Positions 28,425 to 34,748 of a stretch of DNA of 34,748 nt are shown here, one piece after another. The notes under the pieces were generated by a model. The model was not told the origin of the DNA. It worked only from the letters and a program-made list of their open reading frames with translations, and did no database searches. Source of the stretch: a virus; IMG/VR virus record IMGVR_UViG_3300032333_000151, positions 1-34,748 of that record, one strand, 5' to 3'. Within the stretch, counting starts at the first letter, position 1. Each line of letters opens with the position of its first letter. The position numbers and the translations under genes were made by a program.

Positions 28425-28718
28425 TCAGAACGGCAGCGAGTCGTCGTCTTCTGGCTCCGGCTTGGCTTGGGCTTGGACCCTTTGAGGCGCGGCCGTGTCG
28501 CCCCCTCGGTTGATTTTCTTGTAGTTGCCCACGATGGCCCCCTTGGTGCCCTTCTCCCGGGCTTCCTTGGAAACGCCCTGGGAGACGAACCCGTCGTTGC
28601 CGTACTGGTCCACCCCGTCCTTGTTTGGGATCAGGACGAGGTCGGCGTAGATGCCCTTTTGCCCCTTGAAAAAGTGGCCCTTGTCCAACTTGGTGACGTC
28701 TATCTTTGCAATGATCAT
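28425..28718 (-). CDS. Small ssDNA-metabolism protein with SSB-like acidic tail
   Basis: 97 residues, ATGA-coupled to the helicase loader. The core is MIIAKIDVTKLDKGHFFKGQ, then GIYADLVLIPNKDGVDQYGN and a KGAIVGNYKKINR segment. A Pro/Ala/Gln linker leads to the C-terminal EPEDDDSLPF, which closely matches the acidic DDDIPF-type tip by which SSB recruits repair and replication proteins. The family is common in phages beside replication genes. It may mimic the SSB tail to recruit host proteins to the phage fork; ssDNA binding is not shown by the sequence. Confidence 0.75.
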   Translation of the reverse strand: MIIAKIDVTKLDKGHFFKGQKGIYADLVLIPNKDGVDQYGNDGFVSQGVSKEAREKGTKGAIVGNYKKINRGGDTAAPQRVQAQAKPEPEDDDSLPF

Positions 28719-29467
28719 GGTGTTTTGACTACGATTTGGCGGGTTGTTTCTCTCATTCTGCGGAGCATTGGCTCCCCGATGTCGGGTCCGATGCGGAGTT
28801 GTTTGACGAGGGCGGCCCCGTCGAGGTTGGTTGTGACTACAATGGGGCGGCCGTGCCGGTAGCGTCCATCCAGAACGTCGAACCAGATGCCCACGGTGGC
28901 CGGCGTCCAGGGCGCTTTGCCTAGGTCGTCGAGGAAAAGCACGTCGGCCTCGATGAGCCGGTCCACGAACTCGGTGAGCGTGAACTTGCCACCCGCGTCT
29001 CGGGCTTGTCGGTCGAACTCACCGGATGCCATGGCCCGGATCCGTTTGCCGTCCACGAATGACCGGCGAAGAAGTCGCCACACTGCCCGGGTCTTACCGT
29101 GCCCGGACTTGCCCCGGACGATCAGCCCTTGGCTTGGCAGGTCGTGCTGGATGACCTGTTGGAGGATCGGAAACTCGCCTAGGAGCCTCCCAACGTCGGT
29201 TCGGCCCCCTTCCTCGGTTGTGCGGAACTCCATTGGGCAAAGGGCCTCCCAGGCTTCACGGCGAGCCCTTTGGCGTTCGGATTGGTTTTGCTCCCACGCC
29301 TTTTCACGCTCGATGGCTTGGCGGTTGATGATGCACGGGTCGCAGTACCGGGCTTGGAACAGCACCTTGCCCGGGTTGAATGGTGACCGCATCACGGCGG
29401 CCCCGAAGTCCTTGAGGCAGTTCTGGCAGGTCGAAGGCACCCGCTCGATGTCGTCGGTGGTTTCCAT
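28715..29467 (-). CDS. DnaC/IstB-type helicase-loader ATPase
   Basis: 250 residues from ATG 29467. Residues 14-45 carry two CxxC pairs (CQNC and CDPC), a zinc ribbon seen in phage loaders. The AAA+ core has Walker A GKSGHGKT (119-126), Walker B DVLFLDD (175-181), sensor VTTN (211-214) and arginine candidates in MLRRMRE (234-240). It should load the host replicative helicase at an origin melted by the initiator encoded just upstream, as lambda P or DnaC do. No helicase or polymerase gene was found, so the host replisome is needed. Confidence 0.9.
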   Translation of the reverse strand: METTDDIERVPSTCQNCLKDFGAAVMRSPFNPGKVLFQARYCDPCIINRQAIEREKAWEQNQSERQRARREAWEALCPMEFRTTEEGGRTDVGRLLGEFPILQQVIQHDLPSQGLIVRGKSGHGKTRAVWRLLRRSFVDGKRIRAMASGEFDRQARDAGGKFTLTEFVDRLIEADVLFLDDLGKAPWTPATVGIWFDVLDGRYRHGRPIVVTTNLDGAALVKQLRIGPDIGEPMLRRMRETTRQIVVKTP

Positions 29468-29469
29468 GG

Positions 29470-30159
29470 TCAGAATGCGGCGTCGTCTGCGGTTGCGGTT
29501 TGGTAGCGGTTGTCTCCGAGGCTGAGGCTTTGGGATCGTTCCTTCCAACGAGTGGCCCACCCAGCCAATGCATGAGGCCATGACTTCATTGGCACCTTAC
29601 CGACCCGCCATCCGTTCGAGGCGTAATAGGCCACGAACTTGTCCACCTCGATGGATGGAAGCCCGAGCTTCTCAGCTTCAAGGTTCAACTGCTCGCGGGT
29701 TGGAGGAACAAAGCGAATGCTTGTAGCATTGCCCAAGCATTGCTTGAGCGATGCTTGCTTACTTTCCTTTTCCTTTTCCTTGTCCTTATCTCTGTCTTTC
29801 TCTTCAGAGAGCTTTTCGGTTCGCTTTGCCCATCGGGCTTCCGCTGCCTTTTTGGCGCGGTCGTGGTTGGTAACGTGAAACGAGTTTCGCTCGGCCCAAT
29901 TCCTGATGATGCCGTTTTCGAGGAATCCGGCGTCGTTTAATGCTTGGAGCATCTCTTGAGCATTGCCCGAGTATTGCACAAGCATTGCTAGGTCCTCTGC
30001 TTGGTAGTTGCTCAGGTCTCCGTCGGGTGCGTTCTCAGCCGCGAATGACCAAAGGCGTGGCGGGATCCAGAACGCTGCATCTCCAAGCTTTCGCCTGAGT
30101 TGCAACGTCTTGCGGTGCGTCCAGAACGACGAATGAAGTCGGACGTAAAGGTTGCTCAT
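29470..30159 (-). CDS. Replication initiator / replisome organiser (lambda O or DnaD-like)
   Basis: 229 residues from ATG 30159, ATGA-coupled to a 40-residue ORF. The N-terminal 100 residues are a winged-helix DNA-binding domain (YVRLHSSFWTHRKTLQLRRK, LGDAAFWIPPRLW). A charged Lys/Asp/Glu linker (EEKDRDKDKEKEKESK, about 118-133) is followed by a C-terminal DnaD-type domain (EVDKFVAYYASNGWRVGKV, SWPHALAGWATRWKER). The gene itself contains two clusters of 11-bp-phased repeats and a polypurine tract, which suggests that the origin lies inside it as in lambda O. It is followed directly by the helicase loader. Confidence 0.8.
   Translation of the reverse strand: MSNLYVRLHSSFWTHRKTLQLRRKLGDAAFWIPPRLWSFAAENAPDGDLSNYQAEDLAMLVQYSGNAQEMLQALNDAGFLENGIIRNWAERNSFHVTNHDRAKKAAEARWAKRTEKLSEEKDRDKDKEKEKESKQASLKQCLGNATSIRFVPPTREQLNLEAEKLGLPSIEVDKFVAYYASNGWRVGKVPMKSWPHALAGWATRWKERSQSLSLGDNRYQTATADDAAF
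29716..29754. repeat. Iteron cluster A inside initiator gene
   Basis: On the plus strand AGCATTGC occurs at 29725-29732 and 29736-29743, with AGCGATGC at 29747-29754, all 11 bp apart. An inverted AATGCTTG sits at 29716-29723. CAAGCATTGCTTG (29734-29746) is a perfect palindrome around one base. The 11-bp period is not a multiple of three, so the repeats do not come from a repeated peptide. Confidence 0.65.
29757..29830. other. Polypyrimidine/polypurine tract, candidate unwinding element
   Basis: The plus strand is mostly T and C (for example ACTTTCCTTTTCCTTTTCC), so the minus strand is purine-rich and A-rich. It encodes the Lys/Glu/Asp linker of the initiator. It lies right beside iteron cluster A. 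Lambda has an asymmetric A+T-rich tract next to its O-gene iterons that melts first. Linker coding could alone explain the bias. Confidence 0.45.
29939..29988. repeat. Iteron cluster B inside initiator gene
   Basis: Plus-strand units AGCATCTC (29948), AGCATTGC (29959), AGTATTGC (29970) and AGCATTGC (29981) are each exactly 11 bp apart. They are preceded by inverted AATGCTTG at 29939-29946, the same arrangement and spacing as at the start of cluster A. The minus-strand consensus is GCAATGCT. Such helically phased repeats are typical initiator binding sites. Confidence 0.7.
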
Positions 30160-30278
30160 GGGGTTAATGAATCCCCAATCCAACCAACACCGGGTAGCAG
30201 TGGGTGCAGCCCTGAACGTTGCGTTTCAGGGAAACCCGCCGGCATTGGCTGGATTGGAGGTTCTGGGGAGTTGTTCAT
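30156..30278 (-). CDS. Possible 40-residue ORF coupled to the initiator
   Basis: Read from ATG 30278 to TGA 30156, whose bases overlap the initiator ATG (ATGA). The peptide MNNSPEPPIQPMPAGFPE and onward is Pro/Gly-rich with no recognisable domain. No good ribosome binding site precedes it. An alternative ATG at about 30297 with GAGGTG upstream opens a 25-residue frame. The coupling suggests a leader peptide that sets initiator expression. It contains the inverted repeat at 30210-30231. Confidence 0.42.
   Translation of the reverse strand: MNNSPEPPIQPMPAGFPETQRSGLHPLLPGVGWIGDSLTP
30210..30231. other. Inverted repeat upstream of initiator gene
   Basis: CCCTGAA (30210-30216) and TTCAGGG (30225-30231) form a perfect 7-bp inverted repeat with an 8-base spacer. 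It has no T-run in either direction, so a terminator is unlikely. It may be an operator, or an RNA hairpin about 50 bases before the initiator start. Confidence 0.4.
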
Positions 30279-30330
30279 CTCTGCTTTGGGCTGCTACACC
30301 CATTTGCCACCTCGCGGTGACTGCTGACAG

Positions 30331-34518: not shown

Positions 34519-34748
34519 CGTGTCTCCCGGGTTCGGTGTCAATGACGCTGAGGATGCGGCCGGTCACCCGAGGGTTGGCGTACCACCAGCCCGTCTGGGA
34601 CTTTTCGCTGACCGCGTCACAGTCCCCGTCGAATGCGATGAACGCCCCGACCTTGAGTTTGTCCACAAGCGCGTGGTCCTCCTGGGCGAATGATCGGAAC
34701 TGCACCCGCTGGGCGTAGAGCGCACCCTTGGCCAGCGTCCGTGTCTCG
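34511..34748 (-). CDS. SSB-like OB-fold protein, 3' part (start is at 224 across the join)
   Basis: This piece is the C-terminal part of the protein that begins at ATG 224 on the other side of the circle. An in-frame GTG at 34705 would give a false 64-residue gene if the window were treated as linear. It holds the strand-loop-strand LVDKLKVGAFIAFDGDCD and the last strand VTGRILSVID, and ends inside the rusA start region. Bases 34626-34748 repeat 1-123. Confidence 0.75.
   Translation of the reverse strand, partial: ETRTLAKGALYAQRVQFRSFAQEDHALVDKLKVGAFIAFDGDCDAVSEKSQTGWWYANPRVTGRILSVIDTEPGRHGE
34626..34748. repeat. Direct terminal repeat, right copy (circular join)
   Basis: Exact copy of 1-123. 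Removing either copy gives the 34,625 bp circle in which the OB-fold gene is intact. Confidence 0.97.

Follow-up and report, generated by a model that had tools for sequence, protein, structure and literature searches.

A candidate replication origin with iterons spaced at 11 bp inside a phage initiator gene

Intragenic origins described to date and their likeness to the locus

Several replication initiators carry their origins within their own genes. In phage lambda, iterons lie inside initiator gene O, and an adjacent strand-asymmetric purine tract is the melting region (PMC5043065). TP901-1 ORF13 and Tuc2009 Rep were reported to bind direct-repeat regions that function as origins and lie within the respective genes (PMC8965321), and the annotation of the Tuc2009 record agrees with an intragenic origin bound by its own Rep. 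In plasmid pSK41, which encodes a RepA_N initiator, the Rep boxes lie in the middle of rep and encode a dispensable linker joining the DNA-binding NTD to the host-specific CTD (PMC5703833). SPP1 gene 38/oriL combines origin repeats within the initiator gene with loader-dependent helicase delivery (PMC6316719). The intragenic-origin principle is thus already known from lambda O, lactococcal Rep, and RepA_N. The locus described here adds an 11-bp spacing rule, the breadth of that rule, a precise cassette, and a two-cluster layout. The 11-bp rule in a family, the exchange of a bounded cassette of domain and sites, and arrays that bracket a tract are not stated in the open-access literature searched.

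The locus lies in IMG/VR record IMGVR_UViG_3300032333_000151, the whole 34,748 bp of which was analysed and is referred to as the window. Since an exact 123-bp direct repeat is found at both ends of the record (1-123 and 34626-34748), the genome in this record is complete, 34,625 bp long, and circular (or circularly permuted). The phage collections searched contained nothing closely related to the region.

As in lambda, the window iterons are inside the initiator gene, with a strand-asymmetric purine tract beside them, and the comparison with lambda O made in a preliminary description of this DNA is apt as an analogy. It does not extend to the protein, which has no Pfam match at E<=0.1 (Phage_rep_O (PF04492), RepA_N (PF06970), and Rep_3 are all absent), whereas lambda O itself matches PF04492 at 5.7e-36; assignment to the lambda O family was rejected. 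The layout also departs from that of lambda, as had been pointed out: the window has 8-bp units at 11 bp, while lambda has a single array of 18-bp inverted-repeat iterons in steps of 20-24 bp, next to an A+T-rich tract, and relies on loader P rather than on a DnaC-like AAA+ protein. The pSK41 replicon resembles the window in having origin repeats within the initiator gene, between domains, and differs in its RepA_N domain, plasmid lifestyle, and repeat layout; the window linker may be dispensable for protein function, as its variability suggests. SPP1 likewise has origin repeats within the initiator gene, with helicase delivery by a loader; it differs from the window in its A+T-rich unwinding element and in having a second oriR at a distance. 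A Rep_3 iteron plasmid was considered and rejected, as there is no Rep_3 match and the phased iterons are inside the gene instead of at a separate origin.

Judged by sequence comparison, the closest precedents are the replisome organisers of the lactococcal P335 phages r1t and Tuc2009. The Tuc2009 rep gene contains four copies of CAACCA at 11 bp followed by AGGATAGGATAGG (AGGATAGGATAGGAGAGGTTAGG), and in r1t ORF11, four copies of GGAACC at 11 bp precede a GATAAGAATA tract that lacks C. Both thus share with the window repeats inside the initiator gene, 11-bp spacing, and a skewed tract, which in these two phages is C-poor, of a 5-bp type, and placed after the four short direct repeats; r1t also has a DnaC-like loader next to its initiator. 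Unlike the window, both phages have one cluster with the tract 3' of it, and their N- and C-domains are different (Tuc2009 Rep has Rep_Org_C, PF06926, which the window protein lacks). Because the Tuc2009 and r1t genes follow the same 11-bp grammar, the window origin would be of a known kind, and because these two phages and the family homologues described below show 11-bp spacing, the period is not specific to the window phage. Nor is this grammar universal, since a scan of TP901-1 rep, a reported intragenic origin, did not find an 11-bp phase.

The initiator gene, its iterons, and the tract

The features of the region are collected in Table 1.

Table 1. Features of the initiator region, in window coordinates
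Feature	Coordinates	Strand	Basis or content
Initiator gene	29470..30159	-	ATG 30159, TGA stop at 29470; 229 aa; N-domain, linker, C-domain
Iteron cluster B	29939..29989	-	GCAATGCT-type sites 29981, 29970, 29959, 29948 and inverted AAGCATT
Strand-asymmetric tract, between clusters	about 29757..29804	-	coding-strand purines, GGAAAA repeats
Iteron cluster A	29716..29757	-	sites 29747/48, 29736, 29725 and inverted AAGCATT; linker/C-module junction
Initiator C-module including tail GDNRYQTATADDAAF	29470..29715	-	tail accompanies this ATPase type
DnaC/IstB-like AAA+ ATPase	28715..29467	-	phrog_50 (E 1.9e-21), PF01695; 250 aa from ATG
Exchangeable origin cassette: N-domain, both clusters, and tract	29717..30154	-	homology blocks
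Leader with candidate pseudoknot	30173..30301	-	directly before initiator start codon; outside origin claim
Leader elements	S1 hairpin loop 30288-30301; S2 30245-30259; S1' 30194-30200; S2' 30173-30187	-	

The initiator ORF (29470-30183) opens at a TTG at 30183, the ATG listed in Table 1 being the likeliest start. The protein matches two phage families named "replication initiation protein", phrog_9474 (7.4e-12) and phrog_3926 (2.3e-6). The N-domain, modelled with AlphaFold2 from a 26-sequence alignment (mean pLDDT 81.4), consists mostly of helices and has a wing of two strands. Predicted phage proteins named replisome organiser matched the model best (BFVD "Replisome organizer", E 1.1e-5), followed more weakly by the DUF1376 and Lin1244/Lin1753 N-terminal domains; a Foldseek search of the model against PDB returned nothing significant. 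The initiator is a replisome-organiser-type phage N-domain joined to a separately swappable C-domain, which contains SNGWRVGKVPMKSW. The adjacent DnaC-like ATPase noted earlier was confirmed by the phrog_50 match; its ATG almost abuts the initiator stop codon, and it is presumed to be a helicase loader.

Both iteron clusters were found where they had been described. Exact copies of AGCATTGC are located at 29725, 29736, 29959, and 29981, a copy with one mismatch at 29970, and copies with two mismatches at 29747 (AGCGATGC) and 29948 (AGCATCTC); read on the other strand, at 29748, the 29747 site has a single mismatch to AGCATTGC. Every step within a cluster is 11 bp. Each cluster is preceded by an exact inverted AATGCTTG (29716-29723 and 29939-29946), 9 bp from the first copy. 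On the coding strand, cluster B reads GCAATGCTTGT GCAATACTCGG GCAATGCTCAA GAGATGCTCCA AGCATT and overlies codons of the predicted recognition helix, and cluster A, 0.2 kb away, reads GCAAGCATCGCTCAAGCAATGCTTGGGCAATGCTACAAGCATT. The one-sided pyrimidine tract was originally placed at 29757-29830. Positions 29760-29804 are indeed pyrimidine on the plus strand at 41 of 45 sites (91%), but 29805-29830 is mixed, so the tract is shorter than claimed. It lies 22 bp before cluster A and 153 bp past cluster B, and is a candidate melting or helicase-loading tract. Its local G+C is 0.43 in a genome of 61% G+C, and it is not the G+C minimum of the genome, the lowest-G+C 60-mers being at about 32059.

To evaluate chance, codons were swapped among synonymous positions within the gene, a shuffle that preserves the protein and its codon usage. 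The initiator gene contains 10 pairs of 8-mers at 11 bp, compared to 1.5 expected, and only 10 of 2000 shuffles scored as high. A simpler motif count on this gene alone was weaker (69 of 2000 shuffles as high); this first statistic was marginal because the low-complexity tract adds noise, and the tract was masked afterwards. The best phased chain in the gene exceeded all 40 of 40 synonymous shuffles. It was also the top-scoring chain with a 10-12-bp phase among 136 scanning windows that tile the circular 34.6-kb genome; no second phased array was found in these, all phased copies being inside the initiator gene. Because a period of 11 is not divisible by 3, consecutive copies fall into three reading frames and encode different residues, which rules out protein repetition, and a protein-repeat origin of the iterons was rejected. 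Judged on the window gene alone, the evidence against a chance origin of the repeats is moderate to good; comparison with relatives settles that they are real. Cumulative GC skew, which had been put forward as a further check, has no turning point or other origin signal at the site.

Conservation, exchange, and spacing among relatives

Seven IMG/VR contigs (L002-L008) have the N-domain in common with the window and were treated as close relatives; where compared, the first 120 residues are 92-98% identical. All seven retain both clusters. Synonymous polymorphism affects 2 of 16 codons in cluster B and 46 of 100 elsewhere (Fisher p 0.013). A scan of synonymous variation in these relatives reaches its lowest value at cluster B. 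In cluster A, residues QCL change to HCL, with the palindrome CCAAGC(A/T)(A/T)GCTTGG being retained. The proposed check, whether the repeats persist at third codon positions, thus had a positive outcome in close relatives, with the synonymous sites beneath them constrained. Six initiator families, each with a different iteron, all showed suppressed synonymous variation beneath the iterons, significantly so in five (odds ratios 0-0.46; one-sided p 0.003, 0.007, 0.017, 0.089, 0.002, and 0.0007). Patterns of substitution thus identify the iterons as DNA-level signals, maintained by selection on DNA and not on protein. Homologues without the repeats had been named as the finding that would count against such a role: distant relatives do lack the window repeats, yet they carry others at the same spacing.

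The relatives also delimit a unit of exchange. In L009, L030, and L011, homology to the window covers 31980 to 30155 (84-86%), is then interrupted, and resumes from 29723/29716 downward (85-94%), and L002, L003, and L008 match from 31977 to 29717 and then diverge. By these homology blocks, the exchanged piece begins at the start codon (ATG 30159) and ends with the final base of the final iteron; it was replaced as a block in the first three relatives and retained in the other three. L009, L030, L010, and L011 have the C-domain and the ATPase in common with the window, while their N-terminal halves are unrelated and their repeats are different: CACGCGT (11 bp, two clusters), CTCGCGA (10 bp, two clusters), and an AAACCG type. 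The ATPase of L009 is identical to that of the window at 250 of 250 residues, and across the swap, sequences upstream, in the ATPase, and further downstream remain homologous. On this comparative evidence, the N-domain, both clusters, and the tract move as one cassette with defined boundaries.

The C-terminal tail follows a different partner. The motif GDNRYxTATAxxAxF (window 29473-29517) is also present in L002, L009, L010, L011, L030, and L044, and accompanies one type of DnaC-like ATPase, including in L002, where the middle domain is unrelated; L003, L008, L031, and L012 have other tails with another ATPase type. From this joint inheritance with the ATPase type, we infer that the tail is a candidate loader-docking peptide.

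A profile search with the C-domain matched 454 viral stretches, of which 80 were kept, and 43 bacterial genome loci; removal of near-duplicates left 89 initiator genes with a common C-domain. Pairs of 8-mers were counted at each spacing and compared with 200 synonymous shuffles, low-complexity tracts being masked. The dominant spacing was 11 bp (123 pairs compared to 34.3+-5.9 expected, z 14.9), followed by 22 bp (z 7.4) and 34 bp (z 5.7), with the rest between about -1 and 5, and a set of 19 genes selected by N-domain homology gave z 7.1 at 11 bp. Because some of the families have a common ancestry, these z values are inflated and overstate the number of independent cases. The control set of 85 neighbouring genes was flat, with 25 pairs at 11 bp and 25.1 expected (z 0). 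Taken singly, 29 of the 89 genes scored above every one of their 40 shuffles and between them used at least a dozen motifs, and about two thirds had no individually significant phased chain. The motif varies with the N-domain (CACGCGT, CTCGCGA, GCGGTTG, ATGGCCA, GCAATGCT, and others). Of the 29 genes with clear arrays, 11 repeat the motif in a second array at a distance of more than 80 bp (17 pairs, 2.0+-1.5 expected). These counts argue that the 11-bp period is a rule of a large family and not a peculiarity of the window phage. At a verrucomicrobial locus (L115), nucleotides 543-643 of the initiator ORF hold ten copies of GTAACGC at alternating 10 and 11 bp, followed by a purine tract; the average spacing of 10.5 bp is the helical repeat of B-DNA.

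Strong tracts, mostly of 5-7-bp units and with a mean |GC skew| of 0.85, were found in 29 of the 89 initiator genes and in 1 of the 85 controls. They are G-rich or C-rich on the coding strand and encode unrelated peptides (KEKEK, GREGKG, NPTQPNPTQ, SPSPSP, NGNGNG). Of 25 genes with both features, 19 have an iteron followed on its 3' side, within 30 bp, by the start of the tract (1.1 expected). Most relatives thus place the tract 3' of the last iteron; the window is an exception, its tract being 5' of cluster A, between the clusters. Linker peptides such as NPTQPNPT, SPSPSP, KEKEKE, and GREGKG are widespread among phage initiators and coincide with GC-skewed tracts of 5-7-bp units beside iterons; they may reflect a feature of the DNA rather than of the protein.

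The origin reading, its alternatives, and the leader

We consider it very probable that the region is the replication origin of the phage, located inside its own initiator gene, with iterons bound by the N-domain and helicase loading at the tract. The intragenic origin suggested in the preliminary description remains the best-supported reading, on the basis of the repeats, their phase, the constraint on them, the spacing in relatives, and the cassette. In the window phage, initiation would be expected to proceed as follows. The N-terminal winged-helix domain would bind GCAATGCT-type iterons, and since these recur once per helical turn, bound protomers would all be on one face of the DNA. The two arrays would bracket the purine tract, and the assembled nucleoprotein would bend or wrap the DNA and expose a single strand at the tract; opening of the tract by the arrays is proposed by analogy with lambda O complexes, which open an adjacent asymmetric tract. 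The host replicative helicase would then be recruited via the C-terminal part or tail of the initiator together with the adjacent DnaC-like ATPase. Since the recognition domain and its sites lie together on the DNA, one recombination event suffices to exchange both, as has happened repeatedly among relatives.

A broader generalization seems reasonably likely, namely that a very large class of phage initiators, of wide taxonomic range, follows one grammar, in which helical-turn iterons and then a GC-skewed tract of 5-7-bp units sit between the DNA-binding domain and the loader-binding C-domain. Recognition domain and sites would be swapped jointly as a 0.4-kb cassette, which would change origin specificity, and the two window arrays would form one looped loading platform around the tract. 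Origins are unmapped in nearly all uncultivated phages, and a spacing rule applied blindly would allow prediction across many of them. The dozens of natural protein/site pairs would be suited to studying how winged-helix initiators change specificity, and cassette exchange would explain how the match between initiator and origin is kept through recombination. A tract that is skewed and not especially A+T-rich raises the question of which sequence property helicase loading needs.

Not every part of the region need serve the same function. In a sub-variant compatible with the origin reading, cluster A and the tract are the working origin, and cluster B acts separately in autoregulation, looping (handcuffing), or fork arrest, a role of the kind proposed for the second G38P site of SPP1. 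We regard this division as possible, though the less probable arrangement. The 0.2-kb separation of the clusters, the occurrence of a second cluster in only 11 of the 29 genes with clear arrays, and the strong constraint on cluster B over recognition-helix codons speak for it, and fork arrest by G38P at the distant oriR of SPP1 has been suggested (PMC3485210). However, both clusters travel in one cassette and are conserved in all close relatives.

Many initiators also autoregulate, and two arrays inside a transcribed gene could form a roadblock. The iterons might therefore be an operator, bound by the initiator chiefly to hold down transcription of its gene, with replication starting elsewhere. 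We consider this unlikely, because the position is not promoter-proximal, a skewed tract directly follows the iterons in 19 of the 25 relatives, the genome has no other phased array to serve as an origin, and the intragenic repeat regions of Tuc2009 and TP901-1 are reported origins (PMC8965321). The operator and origin roles are not mutually exclusive.

It is very unlikely that the iterons serve another DNA transaction, such as a packaging site, partition centromere, or recombination hotspot, through a different phage protein: phased repeats also occur in centromeres and the cassette edges are recombination points, but the repeat sequence changes with the N-domain of the initiator itself and not with other genes. 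An explanation of the repeats as a side effect of constraint on protein or codons, or of replication slippage at a low-complexity linker, can practically be dismissed, since, despite the resemblance of the tract to a slipped microsatellite, the 11-bp period is out of frame, synonymous shuffles with the tract masked fail to reproduce the spacing, neighbouring genes are flat, synonymous sites are constrained, and close relatives change Q to H yet keep the palindrome.

Apart from the candidate origin, the leader upstream of the initiator folds better than shuffled sequences (z -4.2). It contains interleaved helices, in which hairpin loop S1 pairs with S1' and S2 with S2'. S2' ends about 9-19 nt before the initiator ATG and extends over the region where ribosome binding is expected. 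Across nine distinct leaders from phages of several N-domain classes, 21 of 21 pairs were kept, and in 11 of these both sides had changed; the complete pairing is partly by construction, because the segments were picked for complementarity, which does not apply to the compensatory changes. S1 takes the form of seven different helices among the leaders, all of them paired. A search against Rfam gave no match at the gathering threshold. The leader resembles an RNA switch or pseudoknot, with possible control of the synthesis or translation of the initiator. The leader also occurs upstream of the initiator in other contigs (L002-L012, L014, L031, L048, L051, L186, L189, L192, L195, and L197). In L185 and L186, it precedes a 70-aa ORF that takes the place of the initiator gene.
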